64,000 nucleotides of DNA from Lysobacter sp. BMK333-48F3 (GTDB taxonomy: Bacteria; Pseudomonadota; Gammaproteobacteria; Xanthomonadales; Xanthomonadaceae), in the NCBI RefSeq assembly GCF_019733395.1, contig NZ_JAIHOO010000001.1:4945394-5009393 (forward strand), given 5' to 3'. The stretch's first letter is position 1. Every line of letters starts with the position of its first letter. Shown piece by piece: positions 5,781 to 54,510 of this stretch. The notes below the pieces were generated by a model. It did not search any database, was not told the origin of the DNA, and saw only the letters and a program-made list of their open reading frames with translations. The translations under genes and the position numbers were made by a program.

Positions 5781-6596
5781 ATGATCCGGTCGCCGTTCCT
5801 GCGTTCCGCCCGCACGATGCACCCCGCCGTCCCCGCCCCCCGCCCCGCTTCCCGTTCGGCTTCGCTGCGCCCGCTGGCGCTGGCCGCCTTCCTCGCCTTC
5901 GGAGCCGTCACCGCCATGTCCGCGTCCGCCCAGACCACGCCCTACGTCGCCACCGACGGCACCTTGTTGTCGGTCTCGGCCGAGTCCCAGGCCAAGCGCA
6001 CCCCCAACATCGCCACCGTCTCCACCGGCGTGGTCACCCAGGCTGCCGACGCCAATGCGGCGATGCGCGCCAACGCCGAGCAGATGGCCAAGGTGGTGGC
6101 CGCGATCAAGGCCGCCGACATCGCCGAGCGCGACATCCAGACCAGCGGCATCAACCTCAACCCGCAGTACCGCTACCAGGAAAACCAGCCGCCGCAGATC
6201 ACCGGCTACCAGGCCAACAACAACGTCAACATCGTCATCCGCGACATCTCCAAGGTCGGCAAGATCCTCGACTCGCTGGTCGCCACCGGCGCCAACCAGA
6301 TCAACGGCCCGAGCTTCGACCTGGACGACAAGGACAAGGAAGCCGCCTTCGACGAAGCCCGCCGTGGCGCGATCGAGAAGGCCCAGGCCCGCGCCGACAT
6401 GTACGCCAAGACCCTGGGCATGAAGGTGCGCCGGATCGTCAGCGTCAGCGAAGGCGGCCGCTTCGCCCCGCCGATGCCGATGCCGATGATGGCCATGCGC
6501 ATGGAGAAGGCCGGCGCCGCCGCCGATACCTCGGTCTCGCCGGGCGAAAACACCTTGTCGATGAACCTCGACGTGGTGTTCGAGCTGGGCAAGTGA
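5781..6596 (+). CDS. Secreted SIMPL domain (DUF541) protein
   Basis: Periplasmic protein of the SIMPL/BP26 family; members have been linked to oxidative stress and membrane signalling, but no precise reaction is known. It has 271 residues. The long signal peptide has an Arg-rich start (MIRSPFLRSAR), a hydrophobic core at about residues 33-48 and a likely cleavage after MSASA. The SIMPL fold follows: an LLSVSAES strand, the RTPNIATVSTGV segment, the INLNPQY strand, and KAQARADMYAKTLGMKV near residue 210. A clear Shine-Dalgarno AAGGAG lies 6 bases before ATG 5781, favouring this start over the internal ATG at residue 13. It overlaps or abuts the small ORF that follows. Confidence 0.9.
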   Translation: MIRSPFLRSARTMHPAVPAPRPASRSASLRPLALAAFLAFGAVTAMSASAQTTPYVATDGTLLSVSAESQAKRTPNIATVSTGVVTQAADANAAMRANAEQMAKVVAAIKAADIAERDIQTSGINLNPQYRYQENQPPQITGYQANNNVNIVIRDISKVGKILDSLVATGANQINGPSFDLDDKDKEAAFDEARRGAIEKAQARADMYAKTLGMKVRRIVSVSEGGRFAPPMPMPMMAMRMEKAGAAADTSVSPGENTLSMNLDVVFELGK

Positions 6597-6598
6597 TC

Positions 6599-6784
6599 AT
6601 GGCCGGCGCCGACAAGCAGCCCCCGCGCGGGCCCGACGGCAAGCCGGCGCGCGCGCCGGGCTATCCGGAGCCGCAGCCGCGCGACCGCGAGGACGCGCAG
6701 CGGCCCAAGCGCCCGCCGCCGTCGCCCGACGAGGGCGGCCTGAAGCGCAAGCCCGGGACCGGCCCGGACCCGGCCGAGGACTGA
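6599..6784 (+). CDS. Small proline-rich hypothetical protein
   Basis: A 61-residue, highly polar protein rich in Pro, Arg, Lys and Asp with no hydrophobic core, so probably disordered. I do not recognise a family. It starts 2 bases after the SIMPL stop codon (a GTG at 6593 overlapping that stop is an alternative) and ends just before a good terminator, so it would be the second gene of a two-gene transcript. Evidence is position and uninterrupted frame only; the frame could be fortuitous in 75% G+C DNA. Confidence 0.5.
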   Translation: MAGADKQPPRGPDGKPARAPGYPEPQPRDREDAQRPKRPPPSPDEGGLKRKPGTGPDPAED

Positions 6785-6833
6785 GCGGCGCCGCCCTCGC
6801 CGGCCGCCCGTGGCGGCCGCAACGATCGACCCG

Positions 6834-6859
6834 ACGAGGCCCGCGCAAGCGGGCCTCGT
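6834..6859 (+). terminator. Rho-independent terminator after the SIMPL operon
   Basis: An 11-bp perfect stem (ACGAGGCCCGC/GCGGGCCTCGT) with a GCAA loop is followed by a T-rich TGTTTGT tail. It lies 50 bp downstream of the small proline-rich ORF. Confidence 0.8.
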
Positions 6860-7191
6860 TGTTTGTGCCCGCCTGGACCGCAAGTGGCCCACGGCCTAGG
6901 CCCAGGCGAGCCGTTGCCGTCCATTCAGCCAGATCCGGACCGCGCCCAGCTCGGCATCTGCGATCTCGCTGTCCTGATCGCACCTGCATCCTCGGCGATT
7001 CTGCTGCGATCTGCGTCCAGGACGCCGACACCGATGCGCCCCCTCGCACCGACCAAAGTCGCAAACGAGAACCGCTTGCGTTTGGCAAACGTACGGAGCA
7101 GTTTGTGATCGAAAGCCGGCTTCAGATTCGACCCCGTTCGCGGTAACCGCACGTTGATTGTCGTTGTGTCGATCATCCAAGGAGGAAGCCC
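6860..7191. other. Region without a recognisable gene, upstream of the TonB-family gene
   Basis: About 330 bp with noticeably lower G+C and more even base use than its neighbours, especially 7040-7170. Short frames exist on both strands but show no family resemblance, start signal or codon bias. It presumably holds the promoter of the TonB-family gene; no convincing -35/-10 pair was found. A decayed gene or inserted fragment is possible. Confidence 0.4.
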
Positions 7192-10304: not shown

Positions 10305-12299
10305 TCAGCGCAGGTTGTCTTCGATCACCTGGATCTTGACCCGCTTGCGCAGCTCCGAGGTCAGCTCGCGGCCTTCCTCGTAACCGCCCAGCTGCGAGAT
10401 CTGGGTGCGCATCATGTCCAGTTGCGCCGGCGGGATCTCGGTCTTGCTGCCCGGCACCACCTTGTCGACCGCGAACACCGCGACCCGGCCGTCCGGCAGC
10501 TTGGCCTTGCCCGCGCTGGCCTTGCCGGCGGCCGGCGCCTTCAGGGCGAAGATCGCTTCGCTCACTTCCGGGGTCGGCAGGGGCATGCCGCGGGCCACGT
10601 TCGGCACCGCTTCCGGCGCCGACAGCTGCTTGGACGCGGCCACCGCGGCCAGGGTCTCGCCGGCGTTGACGCGCGCGACCAGCGCCTGCGCTTCCTGCTC
10701 GGCCGCCTTGCCGGTACGGTCGGCGCGCACCGCGGCGATCACCTTGTCGCGGACCTGGGCCAGCGGCAACGCGCGCTCCGGGGTATGCGAGACGACCCGG
10801 ATCAGCACGCTGTGCTCCTGGCCGATCTCGATCGGATCGCTGACCGTGTTGTCCTGCAGGCGCGCTTCGGAGAACGCAGCGCGGATCACCGCCGGGTTGG
10901 CGCCGATGCCGCCGTTGTTGAGCGCCGCATCGCGGGTGATCGGGCCGGTCTTCATCACCGCCAGGTTCATCGCCTTGGCCGGTTCGGCCAGCGAAGTCGG
11001 GTTCTTGTAGACCATGTCGACCAGCTTGGCCGAGAAGTCGTTGAACGCGCGCTCGCGGCCGGTCTCGCTCTCTTCGCGCAGCAGGGTCTCGCGCACCGCT
11101 TCGAACGGCTGCACCTGGCCGGCCTTGACCTCGCGCACCACGATCACGTGCCAGCCCGACTCGTCCTTCACCGGCGCGCTGACTTCGCCGACCTTGAGCT
11201 TGAACATCGCGTCTTCGAACGCGCCCGGGAAGGTGCCCTTGTTGATCCAGCCCAGGTCGCCGCCGACCGCCTTGGAGCCGAGGTCTTCGCTGTTGGCGCG
11301 CGCCAACGCGGCGAAATCGGCGCCGACGGCCTTGGCCTGGCCGGCGAGCTGCGCGGCCTTGGTTTCGGCGGCCTTCTGCGCCGCGGCGTCGGCGCCGGCG
11401 GCGACGTTGATCTGGATGTGCGAGACCAGGCGCTGTTCTTCGGCGACGAAGCGGCTCTTCTCGTCCTCGTAGCGCTTGCGCAGCGAGGCTTCGGTCGGCG
11501 CGCCCGGCGGCGGCAGGGTCGCGCCGGTCAGCTCGACGTACTCGAGGATCACGCTTTCCGGGGCGCGGAAATCCTTGCCGTGGCCGTCGTACCACTTCTG
11601 GATGTCGGCGGCGGCGACTTCGGCGGTGTCGGCGGCCGGCGGCGGCATCAGCAGCAGGCTGACGTCGCGGCGCTCGCCCATCAGCTTGATCAGGCGGTCC
11701 ATCTCGGCCTGGGTCAGGAAGCTGCTCTGGCCGACGTTGCCGACGATGATGTTCTCCATCAGGCGGTCGCGCACGAACTGCTCGAACTCGGTCGGCGACT
11801 GCGGCGGCTGGCGCATCTGCAAGCCGTACAGGTAACGCTCCTGGCTGAACTTGCCGGTGCCGTCCTGGAATTCGGGCACGGCCTGGATGGTCTTGACCAC
11901 CGCGCCGTCGGCGACCGCCAGGCCTTCGACCTCGGCGGCGAGCATGCGCACGCGCTCGTCGATCAGCTGGTCGAGCACCTTGCGCTTGCTTTCCGGCTTC
12001 TCGAACTCGCGCGCGTCGAAGGCCTCGCCTTCGGCCGCGCGGCGGCGGTCGCGCTCGCGCTGGAAGCGCTCGTCGAACTCGGAACGCTCGATCGCCGCCT
12101 TCTTCCACAGCATCGACGCCGGCCACCACGACGGCGCCGAACGCCACCACGACGGCGCGATCTCGATCCGCGCCACGGCGTTGTCGACCCGCTGCACCAG
12201 GTACTGCTCGATGCCGACGAAGGCGAAGGGAATGATCAGCAGGCCCAGGATCACCGTGGCGATCCAGCCCGAGGTCTTGTCGCGAAGTGTCTGCAGCAT
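10305..12299 (-). CDS. ppiD: Peptidyl-prolyl cis-trans isomerase PpiD (SurA_N/parvulin)
   Basis: Membrane-anchored periplasmic chaperone that binds outer-membrane and secreted proteins as they leave the Sec translocon. It has 664 residues (E. coli 623). One N-terminal helix (ATVILGLLIIPFAFVG, about 14-30) is followed by a SurA_N-like region, a parvulin domain at about 265-365 (RLVSHIQINV, DLGWINKGTFPGAFEDA, SGWHVIVV) and a second, degenerate C-terminal domain. The start was set at ATG 12299 (MLQTLRDKTSGW). Residues 48-62 contain a direct repeat, APSWWRSAPSWWP, encoded by two copies of a 15-base unit at 12123-12157. It lies downstream of tRNA-Asp, as ppiD lies downstream of the lon-hup region in E. 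coli. Confidence 0.95.
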   Translation of the reverse strand: MLQTLRDKTSGWIATVILGLLIIPFAFVGIEQYLVQRVDNAVARIEIAPSWWRSAPSWWPASMLWKKAAIERSEFDERFQRERDRRRAAEGEAFDAREFEKPESKRKVLDQLIDERVRMLAAEVEGLAVADGAVVKTIQAVPEFQDGTGKFSQERYLYGLQMRQPPQSPTEFEQFVRDRLMENIIVGNVGQSSFLTQAEMDRLIKLMGERRDVSLLLMPPPAADTAEVAAADIQKWYDGHGKDFRAPESVILEYVELTGATLPPPGAPTEASLRKRYEDEKSRFVAEEQRLVSHIQINVAAGADAAAQKAAETKAAQLAGQAKAVGADFAALARANSEDLGSKAVGGDLGWINKGTFPGAFEDAMFKLKVGEVSAPVKDESGWHVIVVREVKAGQVQPFEAVRETLLREESETGRERAFNDFSAKLVDMVYKNPTSLAEPAKAMNLAVMKTGPITRDAALNNGGIGANPAVIRAAFSEARLQDNTVSDPIEIGQEHSVLIRVVSHTPERALPLAQVRDKVIAAVRADRTGKAAEQEAQALVARVNAGETLAAVAASKQLSAPEAVPNVARGMPLPTPEVSEAIFALKAPAAGKASAGKAKLPDGRVAVFAVDKVVPGSKTEIPPAQLDMMRTQISQLGGYEEGRELTSELRKRVKIQVIEDNLR

Positions 12300-15969: not shown

Positions 15970-16605
15970 ATGCAACGATTGCAGGACGCCATCGATCAAT
16001 ACAACGCAAGCCGGGCCCGCTACTGGGACGACGACTACAACACCTTGCTCGCCGCCGGCCCGGCCGAGCCGGCGCAGCTCGAGCGGCTGCAGGCGCTGGA
16101 ACCGGCACCGCTGCCGGCCGAACTGGTGGCGTTCTATCGCCGCTACGGCGGCCTGCACAACCGGGACAACACCGAATCCCATTGCATGGAACTGCCGGCG
16201 CCGGAGCAATTGGCCGATGGTCTGGAGCAGGCCGACGGCTACGCCCGGATCCGCTCGCTGGGCCTGGCCGACATGATCGTCTACAGCTGGGGCAACGACC
16301 GGCCGGAGTTCGCCCCCGGCCGTGCTTTCTCGCAAGCCGACCTGGACGAGCTGAACGGGCGCTACCGCTGCTACGGCTGGTACCGCACCTACACCGTGCT
16401 GGAAAGCGCCTGGTACCTGTACGCCGACCCGGACGGCCGCTTCGGCGCCCTGTTCTACGACCAGGACCGGTTCGACGCGGCCGCGCGCGAGCTGCGCGCC
16501 CTGCTCGCCGCCAGCCCGGCCCGGCAGAGCCTGGAGCAGGCGCTGTGCGAGGGCGTGGAGCGGATGCGCGCGGCGATGATCGAGTGGTGCGACGAGGACG
16601 CCTGA
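15970..16605 (+). CDS. SMI1/KNR4-like (SUKH) family protein
   Basis: Probable cytoplasmic protein of 211 residues. The segment LEPAPLPAELVAFYRRYGG (residues 44-62), with acidic residues following, is typical of the SMI1/KNR4 (SUKH) superfamily, many of whose bacterial members are immunity proteins against contact-dependent or polymorphic toxins. A conserved aromatic-rich middle (YRCYGWYRTYTVLESAWYLY) supports one fold rather than a random frame. No toxin gene lies beside it. It is inserted in opposite orientation between clpX and lon, interrupting an otherwise conserved block, which suggests a later arrival. Function is not established; the family call is moderate. Confidence 0.65.
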   Translation: MQRLQDAIDQYNASRARYWDDDYNTLLAAGPAEPAQLERLQALEPAPLPAELVAFYRRYGGLHNRDNTESHCMELPAPEQLADGLEQADGYARIRSLGLADMIVYSWGNDRPEFAPGRAFSQADLDELNGRYRCYGWYRTYTVLESAWYLYADPDGRFGALFYDQDRFDAAARELRALLAASPARQSLEQALCEGVERMRAAMIEWCDEDA

Positions 16606-16724
16606 ACGGGCGACCCTGTTCTGCGGCGACCGCCCCGCCCGCGATCGGGCGCCAGTCGCCGGCGGAGCCGGAGCGGGCCGCCCCGGCTGCGCGGACTTGA
16701 CCCCGCGTCGAGCCAGAAACGAAG

Positions 16725-16837
16725 CGCCCCGCCGGAGCGGGGCTACAAACGAACAGCCCCCGCCGGAGCGGGGGCCATAAACCGATCGCCCCCGCCGGAG
16801 CGGGGGCCAAACCAATCGCCCCCGCCAAGGCGGGGGC
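16725..16837. repeat. Tandem array of four GC hairpins (GCCCCCGCCGGAGCGGGGGC type)
   Basis: Four near-identical palindromes of about 20 bp lie at 16725-16742, 16756-16775, 16788-16808 and 16818-16837, each with the loop GCCGGAG or GCCAAG and spaced 30-33 bases apart by short A-rich linkers (ACAAACGAACA, CATAAACCGAT, CAAACCAAT). The array fills the gap between the convergent SMI1/KNR4-like gene and clpX. It may act as a bidirectional terminator or as a REP-like element; there is no T-run. Confidence 0.85.
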
Positions 16838-16844
16838 GAGGTGC

Positions 16845-18134
16845 TCACTCGGCCGAAGCCACCTTGGGCTGGGCCGGCGCGCTCTGGTAGATCAGGTAGG
16901 GCTCGGACTTGTGCTCGATCACCGACTCGTCGACCACCACCTTGCTGACGTTCTCCAGCGAGGGCAGTTCGTACATCGTGTCCAGCAACACCGACTCGAC
17001 GATGGTGCGCAGGCCGCGCGCGCCGGTCTTGCGCTTGAGCGCCTTGCGCGCGATCGCCGCCAGCGCGTCCGGACGGAACTCGAGCTCGACGCTCTCCATC
17101 TCGAACAGCTTGCGGAACTGCTTGGTGATCGCGTTCTTGGGCTCGGTCAGGATCGAGATCAGCGCGGCTTCGTCCAGCTCCTCCAGGGTCGCGACCACCG
17201 GCAGGCGGCCGACGAACTCGGGGATCAGGCCGAACTTGATCAGGTCTTCCGGCTCGACCTCGGCCAGCACCTTGCCGATGTCGGCCTTGCGCTCGCTGCT
17301 CTTGACCTTGGCGCCGAAGCCGATGCCGCCGGCCTCGGTGCTGCGCTGCTGGATGATCTTGTCCAGGCCGGCGAACGCGCCGCCGACCACGAACAGGATG
17401 TTGCGCGTGTCGACCTGCAGGAATTCCTGCTGCGGGTGCTTGCGGCCGCCCTGCGGCGGCACGCTGGCGATGGTGCCTTCGATCAGCTTCAGCAGCGCCT
17501 GCTGCACGCCTTCGCCGGACACGTCGCGGGTGATCGAGGGGTTATCGCTCTTGCGCGAAATCTTGTCGATTTCGTCGATGTAGACGATGCCCTGCTGCGC
17601 CTTCTCGACGTCGTAGTCGCACTTCTGCAGCAGCTTCTGGATGATGTTCTCGACGTCCTCGCCCACGTAGCCGGCTTCGGTCAGCGTGGTCGCGTCGGCG
17701 ATCGTGAACGGCACGTTGAGCAGGCGCGCCAGGGTCTCGGCGAGCAGGGTCTTGCCCGAACCGGTCGGACCGACCAGCAGGATGTTCGACTTCGACAGTT
17801 CGACGTCGTCGTTCTTCTGCCGGCTCTCGATGCGCTTGTAGTGGTTGTACACGGCGACCGCGAGCGTGCGCTTGGCGCGCTGCTGGCCGATCACGTACTG
17901 GTCGAGCACCTCGAGGATCTCGCGCGGCTTGGGCAGGTGGCTGCGTGCCGACTGCGCCTTTTCCTCGAGCTCCTCGCGGATGATGTCGTTGCACAGCTCG
18001 ACGCACTCATCGCAGATGAACACGCTCGGGCCCGCGATCAGCTTGCGGACCTCGTGCTGGCTTTTACCGCAGAACGAGCAATACAGGATCTTGTTGCTGT
18101 CGCCCGTGCTGCGTCCTTGTCGATCGTCGGTCAT
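16845..18134 (-). CDS. clpX: ClpX, ATPase subunit of the ClpXP protease
   Basis: Hexameric AAA+ unfoldase that feeds tagged proteins into ClpP. It has 429 residues. The N-terminal C4 zinc domain is complete (Cys19, Cys22, Cys41, Cys44); Walker A is GPTGSGKT (122-129), Walker [10 protein letters not shown], and sensor 2 lies in KTGARGLR. The start ATG 18134 is the family start. It follows clpP by 177 bp on the same strand and belongs to the tig-clpP-clpX block. Its 3' end faces the hairpin array. Confidence 0.98.
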
Positions 18135-18311
18135 GCGTTGGCCCGTTGGTGCTCTAAATCGTACTCGTGTTCCGGAGCGGGTCCGGCGGCCCGGGCCGCC
18201 GCAGCTCGTTCAGCTGTCACGGCCCGAGGATAACACAGCGGTCCGCCCCCGCCTTGGGTCGGGGGCCGGACGGTTATCCGATGCGGATCAATGGCTTGCG
18301 GCCCGCGTCGT

Positions 18312-18938
18312 TCAGACCGACTGGATCGTCTCGTCCGGACGGCGTTCCAGCACCTGGTCGACCAGGCCGTAGTCGCGGGCGGCCTCGGCGCTCTTGAAGT
18401 TGTCGCGCTCGGTGTCGCGCGCGATGGTCTCCAGGGACTGGCCGGTGTGCTTGGACAGGATCTCGTTGAGGCGCTGGCGCAGGGTCAGGATCTCGCGGGC
18501 GTGGATGTCGATGTCGGTGGCCTGGCCCTGGAAGCCGCCCAGCGGCTGATGGATCATGACCCGCGAGTTCGGCAGCGCCAGGCGCTTGCCCTTGGCGCCG
18601 GCGGCGAGCAGCAAGGCGCCCATGCTGGCGGCCTGGCCGATGCAGATCGTGCTCACGTCCGGCTTGATGTACTGCATGGTGTCGTAGATCGCCATGCCGG
18701 CGGTGACCACGCCGCCCGGGGAGTTGATGTAGAAGTTGATGTCCTTCTCGGGATTCTCGGCTTCCAGGAACAGCATCTGGGCCACGATCACGTTGGCGAC
18801 GTGGTCGTCGACGCCGCCGACCAGGAAGATCACCCGCTCCTTGAGCAGGCGCGAATAGATGTCGTAGGCGCGCTCGCCGCGGCTGGTCTGCTCGACCACC
18901 ATCGGCACCAGATTGAGGGCTTTGGTCAGGTTATCCAT
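18312..18938 (-). CDS. clpP: ClpP, proteolytic subunit of the ClpXP protease
   Basis: Tetradecameric serine protease working with ClpX. It has 208 residues. The catalytic triad is visible as Ser105 (GQAASMGA), His130 (MIHQPLGG) and Asp179 (DTERDNF). [30 protein letters not shown] is split by a short propeptide that is normally removed autocatalytically; the LVPMVVEQT segment is the mature N-terminal loop. It lies 165 bp downstream of tig. Confidence 0.98.
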
Positions 18939-19103
18939 TTCGACGGCACCTATTGACTGACATAGAAGTTGCGCTTGTTAACGCAAGCGCGGCCCGACCA
19001 ACTTGGGGCCGGCCGGGCCGCAGCGCAAGAGGCGCGATTGCTAATTGCTCGCGCGCCGGCGCGAACGCCCGATCGGGCATGCTCGCGCCGGCACGGACCC
19101 GGC

Positions 19104-20405
19104 TCAGGCCGGGCGGATCGCTTCGCTGAACGACAGCGGCTGCTCGGTGTGCTGGGCGCGCTCGGCGATCCAGTCGATCACCTGCTCTTCCATCACCCGG
19201 TTCTGCAGGCCGGCCATCAGCTGCTGGTCGTTGCGGTACAGGTCGATCACCTGCTGCGGCTCCTCGTAGGTCGAGGCGATCAGGCGCAGGGTCTCGTTGA
19301 CGCGCTTGGGCTCCAGGCGCAGCTCGTTGCGGCGGGCGATCTCGCCGACCAGCAGGCCGACCAGGACGCGCTTGCGCGCCGCATCCATGTAGTTCAGGTG
19401 GGCGTCGGCCGGGGCTTCGATCTGGCGGCCCTGGCGGCGGGCCTGCTCGACGGTCTGCCAGACCATGTCGCGGGCTTCGGCCTCGACCAGCTTCGGCGGC
19501 ATTTCCACCGACTCGTAGGCGGCGATCAGCTGCTCGCCGACTTCGCGGCGCAGGCGGGTCATCAGCGCGCCCTTGAGCTCGCGCTCCAGGTTGGTGCGGA
19601 TGTCGTTGCGGAACTGGTCCGCTTCGCCGCTCTTCACCCCGAAGCTCTGGATGAACTCGGCGTCGACTTCCGGCAGGACCGGCTCGGACACGTTGTTGAG
19701 CTTGAGGTGGACCTTGGCCTGCTTGCCGGCCAGCTGCGGCGCGCGCCAGTCGGCCGGGAACTCGACCTCGGCGACGGTCTCGTCGCCGGCCTTGACCCCG
19801 ACCAGGGCCTCTTCCAGCGGCTTGAACATCGATTCCGAGCCGATCACGGTGCTGCCGTATTCGGCGCCTTCGGCCGGGAAGCGCTCGTCGCCGATCTCGG
19901 TCCAGGTCTCGACCTCGACCACGTCGCCGGCCTGCGCGGCGCGCTCGGCCTTCTGCAGGGTGCGGCGCTGCAGGCGCAGGTTCTCGATCATCGCGTCGAT
20001 GTCGGCATCGGCGACTTCGGAGGTGTGGCGGACGATGTTGAGCTTGGCCACGTCGATGTCGCCGAAGTCCGGCACGACTTCGAAGGTGGCGACGTAGGAC
20101 AGGGTCTCGCCGGCGTCGGCCGCCGGCTCGATGCGCGGCTGGCCGGCGATCTGCAGCTGTTCCTGGCGCACGGCGTTGCTGAAGCCTTCGCGCAGCATGC
20201 CGTCGAGGATCTCGGCGCGCACCTGAGCGCCGAAGCGCTGCTCGATGACCTTGGCCGGCACCTTGCCCGGGCGGAAGCCCTTGATCTTGGCGCCGCGCGC
20301 GATCTCGCGCAGGCGGCCGCCGACCTGGTTCTCCAGGTTCTCGGCCGGGAAGCTGAAGGTCAGTCGGCGTTCGAGCGAGCCCAGCGATTCGAGCGAAACT
20401 TGCAT
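19104..20405 (-). CDS. tig: Trigger factor, ribosome-associated chaperone
   Basis: Chaperone and prolyl isomerase that meets nascent chains at the ribosome exit tunnel. It has 433 residues (E. coli 432). The ribosome-binding signature GFRPGKVP lies at residues 43-50; the FKBP-type domain follows at about 150-235 ([18 protein letters not shown]) and the C-terminal chaperone arms run to the end. ATG 20405 is preceded by CAGGAG at a 5-6 base distance, so it is preferred to the GTG two codons upstream. It is the first gene of tig-clpP-clpX, with a candidate promoter at 20468-20495. Confidence 0.97.
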
Positions 20406-41630: not shown

Positions 41631-41672
41631 AGGGACGGAGGGGGTTAAGCCCGCTTAACCCCCTCCGTCCCT
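41631..41672. repeat. Perfect 19-bp palindrome with 4-base loop
   Basis: AGGGACGGAGGGGGTTAAG (41631-41649) and its exact complement (41654-41672) with a CCCG loop, just after the amidohydrolase stop codon and 33 bases before the convergent gene end. There is no T-run, so it is an imperfect candidate for a bidirectional terminator or a mobile palindromic repeat. Confidence 0.85.
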
Positions 41673-50487: not shown

Positions 50488-50780
50488 GACGACGGCCGCG
50501 GCGACGCGGCCGTCATTCATTGGGACGCCCTCCTGTAGGAGCGGCGTAAGCCGCGACCAACCGAAGCGACGCAATACCACGCCGTCCTCCGAAGCCGACG
50601 ACTCCACAGCCCCCTTCCGATCTACCGGGCTTCGGCCACCACGCTCGCATCCACCGCTGCGGTTGTCGCGGCTGACGCCGCTCCTGCAAGGGTCTGCGCC
50701 GCCGCGGGCGGGGCGGTGCGCCCCCTTCCGAACCCACGCCGCCATGCGGCCGCCGCGGCATGGCCGTTAGAATCGACGCC
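50488..50780. repeat. Inverted pair of TGTAGGAGCGGC-type repeats
   Basis: TGTAGGAGCGGCGTAAGCCG plus CGACC at 50534-50558 faces an inverted relative (GGTTGTCGCGGC...GCCGCTCCTGCA) at 50661-50688. Each copy is itself palindromic (GCGGC...GCCGC). The same family recurs at 53746-53785 and 54242-54510. The stretch also includes the DUF502 promoter region; no gene is seen. Confidence 0.8.
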
Positions 50781-51393
50781 ATGCGCCCGCCTACCCTGCA
50801 ACGCCTGTTCCTCACCGGCCTGTTGACCCTGCTGCCGATCTGGCTGACCTGGGTCGTGGTCAAGTTCGTGTTCGTGATGCTGTCGGACATCAGCCGGCCC
50901 TTGATCGGACCGCTGCTGCAGGACCTCGCCCTGGCTCATCCGCAAACGCTGTCCTGGCTCGGCGCGCAGTGGGTGCAGACCGCCCTGGCCCTGATCGCGA
51001 CCCTGGCGGTGATCCTGCTGTCCGGCGCGATGGCGCGGGTGGTGGTCGGCCAGACCGTGCTGCGCTGGTTCGAATCGCTGATCAAGCGGGTGCCGCTGGC
51101 CAGCATCGTCTACGGCAGCGCGCGGCAGTTGCTCGACATCCTGCAGACCAAGCCCGACGGCACCCAGCGCGTGGTCCTGATCGACTTCCCGCACAACGAG
51201 ATGAAGTCGATCGGCTTCGTCACCAAGGTCCTGCGCGAGGCCGGCAGCGGCCGCGAACTGGCTGCGGTGTACGTGCCGACCACGCCCAACCCGACCTCGG
51301 GCTACCTGGAAATCGTGCCGGTGGAAAAGATCACCCCGACCGACTGGACCGTCGACCAGGCGATGAGCTTCATCATCTCCGGCGGCGCGGTGT
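50781..51393 (+). CDS. DUF502 membrane protein with 3' end destroyed by a palindromic rearrangement
   Basis: MRPPTLQRLFLTGLLTLLPIWLTWVVVKF (in two parts) starts a DUF502 protein: membrane helices at about 8-32 and 70-92, then the soluble domain with YVPTTPNPTSGYLEIVP, EKITPTDWTVDQAMSFIISGGAV. About 204 native residues remain; the family normally ends a few residues later. At 51394 the sequence turns into its own reverse complement, so the native C-terminus and stop are gone. The frame then runs without a stop through antisense copies and out of frame through the next gene, and enters the YhhQ-type transporter in its own frame, ending at 53684 (967 codons in all). Whether a shortened, extended or fused product is made is unknown. 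Confidence 0.8.
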
Positions 51394-51466
51394 CGCCGGA
51401 GATGATGAAGCTCATCGCCTGGTCGACGGTCCAGTCGGTCGGGGTGATCTTTTCCACCGGCACGAT
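51312..51466. repeat. Perfect palindrome 1: 73-bp arms, 9-base centre
   Basis: The left arm 51312-51384 (end of the DUF502 gene) is repeated as its exact complement at 51394-51466, 73 of 73 matches, around GCGCGGTGT. The right arm ends in a 13-base stretch (CCACCGGCACGAT) that is also the start of palindrome 2. Confidence 0.97.
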
Positions 51467-51853
51467 CTCCAGCTCGGCCGGCAGGTTCAGACTGAAACGG
51501 CGGCCGTCGTCCAGGCGCACCGGGTGCGGGGTCAGCGCGGCCGGCGCGGCGGACGCGGAGGCGGCGGCGAGGGCGACAACGGCGAAGGCGGCGCAGCGCA
51601 GGCGTTGCAACAGGCGTGAGGTCATTGCGGACGATCCATGTCGGGGGCCGCGGGCGCGGCCCCCGACATGGATCGTCCGCAATGACCTCACGCCTGTTGC
51701 AACGCCTGCGCTGCGCCGCCTTCGCCGTTGTCGCCCTCGCCGCCGCCTCCGCGTCCGCCGCGCCGGCCGCGCTGACCCCGCACCCGGTGCGCCTGGACGA
51801 CGGCCGCCGTTTCAGTCTGAACCTGCCGGCCGAGCTGGAGATCGTGCCGGTGG
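51454..51853. repeat. Perfect palindrome 2: 199-bp arms, 2-base centre
   Basis: 51454-51652 is the exact reverse complement of 51655-51853, with only GG at the centre. The right arm is the leader and first 57 codons of the PQQ-type dehydrogenase gene; the left arm is an antisense copy of them. It overlaps palindrome 1 by 13 bases. Confidence 0.97.
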
Positions 51854-52875
51854 TGCAGGGCCTGAAGCGGGTGCGCTTCTTCGCCCGCAGCCCGGACGGG
51901 CGCCTGTTCGTCACCGACATGCACGACCTCAGCGACAACCAGCGCGGCCGGGTCTACGCGCTGGACGGCTGGGACGAACAGAAGGAGCGCTATACCAAGG
52001 TATCGGTCTACCTGGACAAGCAGCGCAATCCCAACAGCGTCGCCTTCTATACCGATCCCTCCGGCAAGAGCTGGCTGTACGTCGCCAACACCGACAAGCT
52101 GCTGCGCTACCGCTACCGCAACGGCGACCTCAAGCCGTCCTCGGAACCGGAGGTGCTGGCCAGCTTTCCCGACTACGGCCTGAGCTACAAATACGGCGGC
52201 TGGCACCTGACCCGCACCCTCGCCTTCGGCGGCGACAAGCTCTACGTCTCGGTCGGCAGCAGTTGCAACGCCTGCGTCGAAAAGGAAGACGTGCGCGCGG
52301 CGATCCTGCAGATGACCCCCGACGGCAGTGGCCGCCGTTTCTACGCCACCGGGCTGCGCAACGCGGTCGGCCTGCTGTACCGCAACGGCCGCCTGTACGC
52401 GACCAACCAGGGCTCCGACCACCTCGGCGACCAAAAGCCCGACGAAACCCTGTTCGAGGTCCGCGACGGCGCCGACTACGGCTGGCCGTACTGCTACCAC
52501 AGCCAGGGCAAGCCGCTGGCCGACGCCAAGTTTCCGCGCAAGGCCGGCTGCGCCGCAGTGCCCAAGGCGCTCGCTTTCTTCCCCTCGCATGCCTCGGCGC
52601 TGGGCCTGAGCTGGTTCCCCGCCGCCGACGGCGGCCTGCTGCGCGACGAGTTCCTGGTCGCCCTGCACGGCGCCAGCAAGCTTTCCCTCGACCACGGCTA
52701 CCGCATCGTGCGGGTCAAGGCCGACGGCCGCAGCGGCGGCGAACTGGTCAGCGGCTTCCTCGCCGGCGGCAAGGTCCTGGGCCGCCCCTGCGACGTGCTG
52801 CGCACCGGCCGCGACAGCTTCCTGTTCACCGACGACAAGAGCGGAGTGATCTATCGGGTGAGGCCGAAGCGGTGA
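51682..52875 (+). CDS. PQQ-dependent sugar dehydrogenase-like (sorbosone dehydrogenase family) protein
   Basis: 397 residues. The signal peptide MTSRLLQRLRCAAFAVVALAAASASAAPA is followed by a six-bladed propeller: ELEIVPVVQGLKRVRFFARSPDGRLFVTD, NPNSVAFYTDPSGKSWLYVAN, GWHLTRTLAFGGDKLYVSVGSSCNAC, FYATGLRNAVGLLY, NQGSDHLGDQKPDETLFEV, DYGWPYCYH and GLSWFPA (each a separate stretch, longest ones abbreviated here by segment). Soluble glucose or sorbosone dehydrogenases of this type oxidise sugars with PQQ in the periplasm. The start is ATG 51682 with no clear ribosome-binding site; only 27 native bases remain upstream before the palindrome centre, so the original promoter may be lost. Its TGA overlaps the GTG of the next gene. 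Confidence 0.88.
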   Translation: MTSRLLQRLRCAAFAVVALAAASASAAPAALTPHPVRLDDGRRFSLNLPAELEIVPVVQGLKRVRFFARSPDGRLFVTDMHDLSDNQRGRVYALDGWDEQKERYTKVSVYLDKQRNPNSVAFYTDPSGKSWLYVANTDKLLRYRYRNGDLKPSSEPEVLASFPDYGLSYKYGGWHLTRTLAFGGDKLYVSVGSSCNACVEKEDVRAAILQMTPDGSGRRFYATGLRNAVGLLYRNGRLYATNQGSDHLGDQKPDETLFEVRDGADYGWPYCYHSQGKPLADAKFPRKAGCAAVPKALAFFPSHASALGLSWFPAADGGLLRDEFLVALHGASKLSLDHGYRIVRVKADGRSGGELVSGFLAGGKVLGRPCDVLRTGRDSFLFTDDKSGVIYRVRPKR

Positions 52876-53684
52876 GCGCGAACCCGTCGCCGATCGCGGC
52901 CGCCAGCGGCGAAGGCACGCGTACCCTGCAGGATCGCGCGCTGCGCTTGTTCATCGTGTTGGCGGCGTTCTTCTGCGTCAACGCGGCGCTGGCCGAGTTC
53001 ATCGGAGTCAAGATCTTCGCCCTCGAAGACACCCTGCGCATCGCACCCTTGCAGTGGAACCTGTTCGGCCAGACGGGCTCGCTGAACTTCACCGCCGGCA
53101 CTCTGCTGTGGCCGGTGGTGTTCCTGATGACCGACGTGGTCAACGAGTTCTTCGGCCGTCGCGGCGTGCGCTTCATTTCCTGGCTGGCGACGCTGCTGAT
53201 CGCTTACGGTTTCCTGTTCGCGTTCGCGGCGATCGCGCTGGCCCCGGCCGGCTGGTGGGTGACCGCGGCGCAGGCGCAGGGCGTGCCGGATTACCAAGCC
53301 GCATTCGCGGCGATCTTCGGCCAGGGCCTGTGGAGCATCGGCGGTTCGCTGGTGGCTTTCATGCTCGGCCAGCTGATCGATGTCTCGGTGTTCCACCGCA
53401 TCCGCAGCGCCACCGGCGAGAAACACGTGTGGCTGCGCGCCACCGGCTCGACCGCGGTCTCGCAGTTGGTCGACAGCTTCGTCGTGCTCTACATCGCCTT
53501 CGTGCTCGGCCCGCAGCATTGGCCGATCCCGCAGTTCCTGGCGATCGGCACGGTCAACTACGGCTACAAGATGCTGGCCGCGTTCGCGATGATCCCGTTG
53601 ATCTATCTGCTGCGGCGCTGGATCCACCGCTACCTGGGCGAAGCGCGCGCGCGGCAGCTGCGCGAAGAAGCCGCGGCGGACTGA
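52872..53684 (+). CDS. yhhQ: YhhQ-type queuosine precursor transporter (VUT family)
   Basis: 270 residues from GTG 52872, whose GTGA overlaps the stop of the dehydrogenase gene and has GAGGCCGAAG upstream. Six to seven membrane helices: LFIVLAAFFCVNAALAEFIGVKIF, GTLLWPVVFLMTDVVNEFFGRRG (each in part), LATLLIAYGFLFAFAAIAL, LGQLIDVSVFHRIRSATG and others. The motif FxMTDxxNExFG and QLIDVxVFHxIR are typical of YhhQ/QueT transporters that import 7-cyano-7-deazaguanine or preQ1 for tRNA queuosine. The same frame is open all the way back to the DUF502 start because of the rearrangement. Confidence 0.9.
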   Translation: MSANPSPIAAASGEGTRTLQDRALRLFIVLAAFFCVNAALAEFIGVKIFALEDTLRIAPLQWNLFGQTGSLNFTAGTLLWPVVFLMTDVVNEFFGRRGVRFISWLATLLIAYGFLFAFAAIALAPAGWWVTAAQAQGVPDYQAAFAAIFGQGLWSIGGSLVAFMLGQLIDVSVFHRIRSATGEKHVWLRATGSTAVSQLVDSFVVLYIAFVLGPQHWPIPQFLAIGTVNYGYKMLAAFAMIPLIYLLRRWIHRYLGEARARQLREEAAAD

Positions 53685-53745: not shown

Positions 53746-53785
53746 ACACCGCTGCGGTGGTCGCGGCTCACGCCGCTCCTACAGG
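53746..53785. repeat. TGTAGGAGCGGC-type repeat, inverted copy
   Basis: ACCGCTGCGGTGGTCGCGGC, then TCACGCCGCTCCTACAGG; it is the same family as at 50534 and 50661, and its 5' CGCTGCGGT block also precedes the copy at 50661. Confidence 0.8.
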
Positions 53786-53913
53786 CGGTAGGTCCGGGCT
53801 TCGACGGATGGCGCAAGCCTTGAAGATTCTGCGCGTCCCGTGGTCGCGGCTTGTGACCGAAGGAAATCCCCGTGGGACGCCGCTCCTACCCCGTAAGCAA
53901 CAGCGGCGCCCAG

Positions 53914-53970
<57 letters not shown>

Positions 53971-54190
53971 GAAGAGCATGGCGCAGCCTCGATCTCGCGA
54001 GAACGCCCTGAAGCCCCGGAGGGCGGGCCGCAGGGATGCGGCCCGTGCGCAGCCAGGCCAGGGATGGCCTGTGCGGAGCAGCCCCGCGCAAACCTCGTCC
54101 CATAGTGGCTTTTGATTCGAAACAGGAATGGCGTTTTCTTTGGTTACTTTCTTTGTCGCCTTGGACAAAGAAAGTGACCCGGCCGCTTGC
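53971..54190. repeat. Dispersed Xanthomonadaceae-type non-coding element
   Basis: A 220-bp block containing GGATGCGGCCCGTGCGCAGC, the palindrome GGTTACTTTCTTTGTC/GACAAAGAAAGTGACC (54142-54157 and 54164-54179), and low-G+C linkers. Its minus-strand translation (SKATKKVTKE..., NQKPLWDEVCAGL, GHPWPGCARAASL) is one I recall seeing repeatedly as spurious ORFs in Xanthomonas and Lysobacter genomes, so I take it as an element, not a gene. Confidence 0.55.
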
Positions 54191-54241
54191 GGACGGAAGC
54201 TTTGCTTTGGAGCTTTAGACGCCGCGAGACCGCAAGAACGC

Positions 54242-54510
54242 GGTCGCGGCTTACGCCGCTCCTACAAGGGCACAGGACAAAGACGCGGCGAACGGGCGAG
54301 ATGGCGGTCGCGGCTTGCGCCGCTCCTACAGGGGCGCAGGACAAAGACGCGGCGAACGGGCGAGATGGCGGTCGCGGCTTGTGACCGAAGGAAATCCCTG
54401 TGGGACGCCGCTCCTACAGGGGCACAGGACAAAGACGCGGCGAACGGGCGCGATGGCGGTCGAAGCTTGTGACCGAAGGAAATCCCTGTGGGACGTCGCT
54501 CCTACCTCAC
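54242..54510. repeat. Tandem array of four TAGGAGCGGC-derived units
   Basis: Units begin at 54242, 54306, 54370 and 54458 with GGTCGCGGCTT (GGTCGAAGCTT in the last). Units 1 and 2 are 64 bp and include GCCGCTCCTACA, GGACAAAGACGCGGCGAACG and GGGCGAGATGGC. Units 3 and 4 carry an insertion GTGACCGAAGGAAATCCCTG within the repeat (unit 3 is 88 bp). A fifth, isolated relative with the same insertion lies at 53842-53890. No gene spans the array. Confidence 0.88.

Follow-up and report, generated by a model that had tools for sequence, protein, structure and literature searches.

Fold-back reads, in which a sequence doubles back on itself, are documented for long-read sequencing, typically at 1–4% and in some data at up to 20–30% of genomic reads (as cited in PMC12870357). 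Inverted-repeat chimeras arising from end repair are described for short-read libraries in the sections of PMC10908179 considered here, and palindromic fold-back chimeras for amplified DNA in those of PMC6218980. Related structures are attributed to strand switching during DNA synthesis. The accounts of origin-dependent inverted-repeat amplification and of leading/lagging template switching in the relevant parts of PMC4689423 and PMC10766183 concern interstitial inverted triplications, which according to PMC4689423 lose no information. Here, we analysed a window of 64,000 nt, corresponding to positions 4945394-5009393 of contig C1 (5,224,492 nt) of genome G000, in which two perfect palindromes abut between a DUF502 gene and a sugar dehydrogenase-like gene. 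As far as the evidence reaches, these palindromes are no real biological feature, and an artefactual origin is strongly preferred.

Two abutting palindromes at a gene junction

Letter-by-letter comparison established identity over 73 of 73 nt between one arm of palindrome 1 and the reverse complement of the other, around a 9-nt loop (GCGCGGTGT), and over 199 of 199 nt for palindrome 2, around a 2-nt loop (GG), with no mismatches in the arms of either (Table 1). Given its base composition, the window would be expected to contain about 8e-34 palindromes whose arms reach 73 nt or more and whose loops do not exceed 40 nt. A repeat search of the whole window found no further close inverted repeat with arms comparable to 73 or 199 nt, and the next-longest perfect palindrome in a scan with loops of at most 40 nt has arms of 20 nt. 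The inverted copies A' and B' have 13 nt in common (CCACCGGCACGAT), the reverse complement of which, ATCGTGCCGGTGG, lies in both the DUF502 gene (51312-51324) and the dehydrogenase gene (51841-51853). The direct match between the two genes extends to 18 of 19 letters (CTGGA[A/G]ATCGTGCCGGTGG) and codes for LEIVPV in each, bearing out the first-pass annotation, which had described both palindromes as exact and traced the 13-bp link to Glu-Ile-Val-Pro-Val codons present in both genes. The left turning point is a native 6-bp inverted repeat, CCGGCG-9 nt-CGCCGG (51379-51399), present also in the corresponding loci of the two nearest relatives (L008 and L009), and 255 nt (approximately 51400-51654) occupy the place of a native DUF502 stretch.

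Table 1. Features of the palindromic junction (window coordinates) and of the four further loci with long perfect palindromes (locus coordinates).
Feature	Position	Strand	Basis or remarks
Native portion of the DUF502 gene (codons 1-206 and 1 nt more), detached from its 3' end and stop codon	50781..51399	+	Pfam PF04367; residues 1-206 identical to P0002; aligned to 19/19 relatives
Arm A, native DUF502, outer half of palindrome 1	51312..51384	+	Letter comparison
Loop of palindrome 1 (9 nt), native, inside the 6-bp CCGGCG...CGCCGG	51385..51393	+	Letters also in L008, L009
Inverted copy A' (reverse complement of arm A); first 6 nt (51394-51399) also native	51394..51466	-	Letter comparison
Microhomology of 13 nt, switch from A' to B'	51454..51466	.	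Letter comparison
Inverted copy B' (reverse complement of arm B): dehydrogenase start and last DUF502 codons	51454..51652	-	Letter comparison
GG loop of palindrome 2	51653..51654	.	Letter comparison
Arm B, native: last 9 DUF502 codons plus stop, AAPDMDRPQ* (51656-51685), overlapping the dehydrogenase ATG (51682)	51655..51853	+	P0002 tail; L008 junction
PQQ-dependent sugar dehydrogenase-like gene, intact, 397 aa	51682..52875	+	Pfam PF07995; names of close relatives
L101 palindromes, arms 242 (loop 11) and 360 (loop 0)	10466-11438		G000 C1
L093 palindromes, arms 57 (loop 27) and 106 (loop 3)	16117-16764		G000 C1
L125 palindrome, arms 203 (loop 30)	6466-6901		G000 C1
L188 palindromes, arms 174 (loop 6) and 612 (loop 7)	17958-19369		G000 C1

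DUF502 is held by all 19 relatives of the genus that were searched and is adjoined by the dehydrogenase gene in 18 of them (the exception is G006, locus L012). The palindrome structure was found at this junction in none of the 19, and only three palindromes with arms of at least 16 nt and loops of at most 40 nt were found in the 19 loci (in L010, L013 and L015, with arms of 19-28 nt and away from the junction). The nearest relatives, G008 (L008) and G007 (L009), have identical junction sequences, in which the DUF502 stop (TGA) and the start of the following gene (ATG) share a 4-nt overlap and the 59 nt separating TCGCCGG from CCCGACATGG are entirely DUF502 coding. The comparison with close relatives that the first-pass annotation had proposed shows a 4-nt gene overlap as the normal junction. 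The loss of a segment, which had also been proposed, holds, but not as a segment that once joined the two genes: because the stop codon overlaps the next start in both relatives, the missing piece is DUF502 3' coding sequence.

A database protein, P0002 (230 aa, source 'lgn', from a contig of 3038 nt, and possibly from another isolate), equals the window DUF502 over residues 1-206 and then continues into a normal 24-residue tail, ASIPFSVPTPAPAAPAAPDMDRPQ, which ends in the codons retained at 51656-51685, in the same frame. Alignment to this protein suggests that about 43 nt of native DUF502 are gone, from the last two bases of codon 207 to the second base of codon 221, and the GG loop would fit as a copy of the CC in the proline codon just 5' of the retained tail. 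The DUF502 gene of the organism itself most likely has this 24-residue tail at its end and overlaps the dehydrogenase start. Of the 19 relatives, 7 contain both 13-nt copies yet lack the palindromes, so the codons in common are not enough to make the structure. DNA folding of 125 nt of the L008 junction gave an ordinary stability (z 0.66), with a hairpin drawn at the turning point. A scan of genome contigs with a 31-nt pattern was set aside: the pattern lies inside the native DUF502 arm, and its 30 loci are ordinary DUF502 genes, used only as control DNA.

Lacking a stop at the junction, the DUF502 frame stays open from 50781 to 53684 (967 aa), crossing the dehydrogenase gene out of frame before entering a Vut_1 transporter in frame (PF02592, 143.9 bits). 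We regard this DUF502-Vut_1 frame as a false fusion of a kind that automatic annotation could adopt. The dehydrogenase start and the 27 nt preceding it are unaltered; the domain match of its product to GSDH is weak (26.6 bits versus a cut-off of 25), and its close relatives are named PQQ-dependent sugar dehydrogenase.

Recurrence of long palindromes in the assembly

Samples of G000 were drawn as four sets, each comprising 20 stretches 20 kb long (1.6 Mb; with the window 1.664 Mb, or approximately 32% of C1), in which we counted perfect inverted repeats whose arms were 50 nt or longer and whose loops were 40 nt or shorter. Perfect close palindromes were found at five loci, the window and four others, with arms of 57-612 nt (Table 1), and all remaining palindromes in the samples had arms of at most 33 nt. 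Long palindromes were absent from approximately 1.16 Mb of partly overlapping control sequence from relatives, where the longest arm was 37 nt (in L032). These controls comprised 600 kb plus 19 kb of G008, 200 kb of G009, 20 kb of G007 and 324 kb of other loci (L008-L066 minus L027, some of which overlap one another or the control stretches). At the rate of four loci per 1.6 Mb, with the prompting window excluded, the controls should contain 2.9 loci, and the chance of finding none is 0.055; for G008 alone, the expectation is 1.5 loci and the chance of none is 0.21. Specificity of the long palindromes to the G000 assembly is therefore only moderately supported.

At L101, G000 lacks 219 nt found between the flanks in G008, a stretch of 80.8% GC, a level reached by only 0.32% of 219-nt windows of G008. 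In G000, a 13-nt match (GTTCGCCGGCCTG) marks the switch into the right flank; a fold-back at a native repeat of 6 bp (centre 1, with an 11-nt loop) is followed by leftward copying and by a second fold, which restores the forward direction at the border of the missing stretch (centre 2, a native self-complementary sequence). As a result of the missing 219 nt, a TPM-domain gene loses its glycine-rich end, which is retained in P0242 and P0243. In G007, a draft of 180 contigs, two contigs (C142 and C91) both end at the L101 gap; the same draft is unbroken at L188 and at the window site. L188 follows the same plan, with 114 nt of G008 missing at 86.0% GC (reached by 0.11% of 114-nt G008 windows) and a jump sharing only about 5 letters (CGCCG), and both loci form forward-inverted-forward triples. 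The gene downstream of the L188 structure, which by its sequence would encode cytidylate kinase, has an uninterrupted frame.

At the window site, the 59 nt of G008 that are replaced have a GC content of 72.9%, which 36% of G008 windows reach. L125 shows no loss compared to G008 and instead carries a 108-nt stretch on both sides, and L093 lies inside a gene whose tandem repeats would mask any loss. The native stretch between the flanks is thus absent at three sites (the window, L101 and L188). In the well-resolved cases, the flanks are joined using only letters of the flanks, from both strands, with turns at short native inverted repeats and jumps at short direct repeats. Such flank-only joins and absent native stretches are what would be expected of chimeric snap-back molecules over a coverage gap.

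Repeats of other kinds were also observed. A perfect palindrome just after a gene end in the window (41631-41672) belongs to a dispersed family, AGGGACGGAGGGG(G/A)TTAAGC paired with the reverse complement, the two lying 0-4 nt apart or sharing a core that is slightly longer; this family occurs in G000 also at L070, L072, L105, L125, L128, L175 and L182. Another dispersed repeat, GGTCGCGGCTTACGCCGCTCCTACA, approximately 25 nt long and frequently paired in inverted orientation, lies at 50534-50558, 53758-53788 and 54242-54266 of the window and at L076, L099 and L174. The window further contains a tandem CGTTGC repeat (53914-53976; a 12-nt register in the repeat search), followed by imperfect tandem repeats of 64 and 88 nt (54217-54493). 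The 20-33-nt palindromes of G000 were considered as relatives of the structure and dropped, several being members of the AGGGACGGAGGGG(G/A)TTAAGC family and others of the form GTCGCGGCT(T/C)ACGCCGCTCCTACA.

Competing explanations

We estimate a probability of roughly 87% that positions 51400-51654, approximately, are a false bridge produced by library preparation, amplification or assembly, through fold-back chimeras over a coverage gap. Few or no good reads would have covered the GC-rich DUF502 tail; single-stranded ends on the left would have folded onto themselves at the inverted repeat of 6 bp native to this site and been copied to give A-A', ends on the right would have snapped back near 51653 to give B'-B, and the two inverted ends would have been joined via the 13 nt common to both genes. 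Observed directly are the exactness of the geometry, the 6-bp seed in native sequence, a normal junction in close relatives and the return of this class of structure elsewhere in the G000 assembly; from these we infer that the joining took place in the tube or the assembler and not in the cell. The first-pass annotation had offered either a double template switch or an assembly or amplification chimera; the geometry agrees with its account, and of its two branches the artefact is favoured, since structures of this class are found at four further places, two of which replace sequence of extreme GC content. Counting against an artefact, the assembly is not generally poor, since it is reported as 99.99% complete with one 5.22-Mb contig among three (the other two, C2 of 2388 nt and C3 of 351 nt, are small and read as N). 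Also counting against it are the unremarkable GC content of the replaced stretch at the window site, the unbroken G007 draft there and at L188, the lack of loss at L125 and the only moderate support for specificity to this assembly. A search of the literature turned up no relevant account of hairpin misassembly during gap closing.

If the palindromes are artefacts, a 99.99%-complete assembly may contain a dozen or so of them, by rough extrapolation from five loci in 1.664 Mb. False palindromes strip gene ends and create false long frames, and would mislead studies of structural variants or gene loss; a simple search for close inverted repeats that are perfect and have arms longer than approximately 50 nt flags them.

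Within this artefactual origin, and included in the probability given for it, is the narrower idea that strand-displacement chimeras from whole-genome amplification of the phi29 type, as opposed to end repair or gap filling, entered the consensus, which we consider unlikely. Such amplification yields palindromic chimeras, sometimes repeated within one molecule, according to the relevant part of PMC6218980, and the forward-inverted-forward triples at L101 and L188 fit this pattern, but nothing indicates that the G000 DNA was amplified. Because amplification chimeras are random, the replacement of extreme-GC sequence at two of the five sites fits coverage gaps better.

A real and very recent fold-back rearrangement in the cell is quite improbable. 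It would start from a double-strand break or a stalled fork in the GC-rich DUF502 tail, both broken ends being primed for fold-back at short native inverted repeats, after which the hairpin-capped ends would be copied into inverted duplications and joined where they share 13 nt of microhomology; with comparable events at other chromosomal sites, the strain would be one prone to fold-back rearrangement. Consistent with this, the fold-back on the left coincides with a native inverted repeat of 6 bp, and both centres at L101 likewise lie on native seeds. The SbcD model (TIGR00619) has no match in 19 of the 20 genomes of the genus, G000 among them, the sole match being a weak one below the cut-off in G005, which suggests a genus without standard SbcCD; palindromes might therefore be tolerated in this strain. 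The SbcC model gave only 21.8 bits over 32 positions in G000, but among 14 control genomes a single one passes the cut-off of this model. G000 does have a Ku homologue. Growth of E. coli carrying a perfect palindrome of 460 bp was normal under SbcCD repression in the experiment described in the pertinent part of PMC4245961. Weighing against a rearrangement in the cell, it would require several independent, mismatch-free events in one strain and none in the samples of its relatives, and it would leave DUF502 without a stop codon. Moreover, P0002 (possibly from another isolate) is intact at the junction, and extreme-GC stretches are missing at two other loci, as missing coverage would give. No further isolate with the structure was found. 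In its broadest form, a burst of real fold-back events at GC-rich hairpins, numbering perhaps about 16 over the whole chromosome, sealed by microhomology, free of mutation and with arms of at most 612 nt, in a strain with Ku and no recognisable SbcD, this explanation keeps only a slim chance. Were it real, the bacterium would be keeping several long perfect palindromes and would offer a natural system for studies of fold-back rearrangement.

That the structure is a functional hairpin between genes (a terminator, a regulatory or a mobile element) is very improbable: perfect palindromes do exist, but the arms merely copy neighbouring coding sequences, the structure is absent from 19 of 19 relatives and removes the DUF502 stop codon, and the ordinary intergenic palindromes of G000 are short dispersed families with arms of approximately 16-33 nt.

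Likeness to known systems

A close likeness is that to the library fold-back and inverted-repeat chimeras described in the sections of PMC12870357 and PMC10908179 considered here, which share the passage from forward sequence at once into its reverse complement, the turns at short native inverted repeats and the joins by short complementary stretches. Those chimeras differ in being described there in reads and not in a finished bacterial consensus, whereas in the window two joined fold-backs replace a native stretch. The palindromic chimeras of whole-genome amplification, as portrayed in the portion of PMC6218980 drawn upon, resemble the present structures in carrying one or more inverted copies per molecule, including triples such as those at L101 and L188, but the G000 DNA is without sign of amplification. 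Origin-dependent inverted-repeat amplification and leading/lagging template switching, as treated in the parts of PMC4689423 and PMC10766183 cited above, likewise involve strand switches at short inverted repeats that generate inverted junctions; in the window, by contrast, native sequence is lost and the arms are only 73-199 nt. In quasi-palindrome template-switch mutations, as presented in the pertinent parts of PMC3820800 and PMC8604942, a polymerase strand switch similarly perfects an imperfect inverted repeat, whereas the window combines two joined switches, a microhomology jump between two genes and arms far longer than their native seeds.
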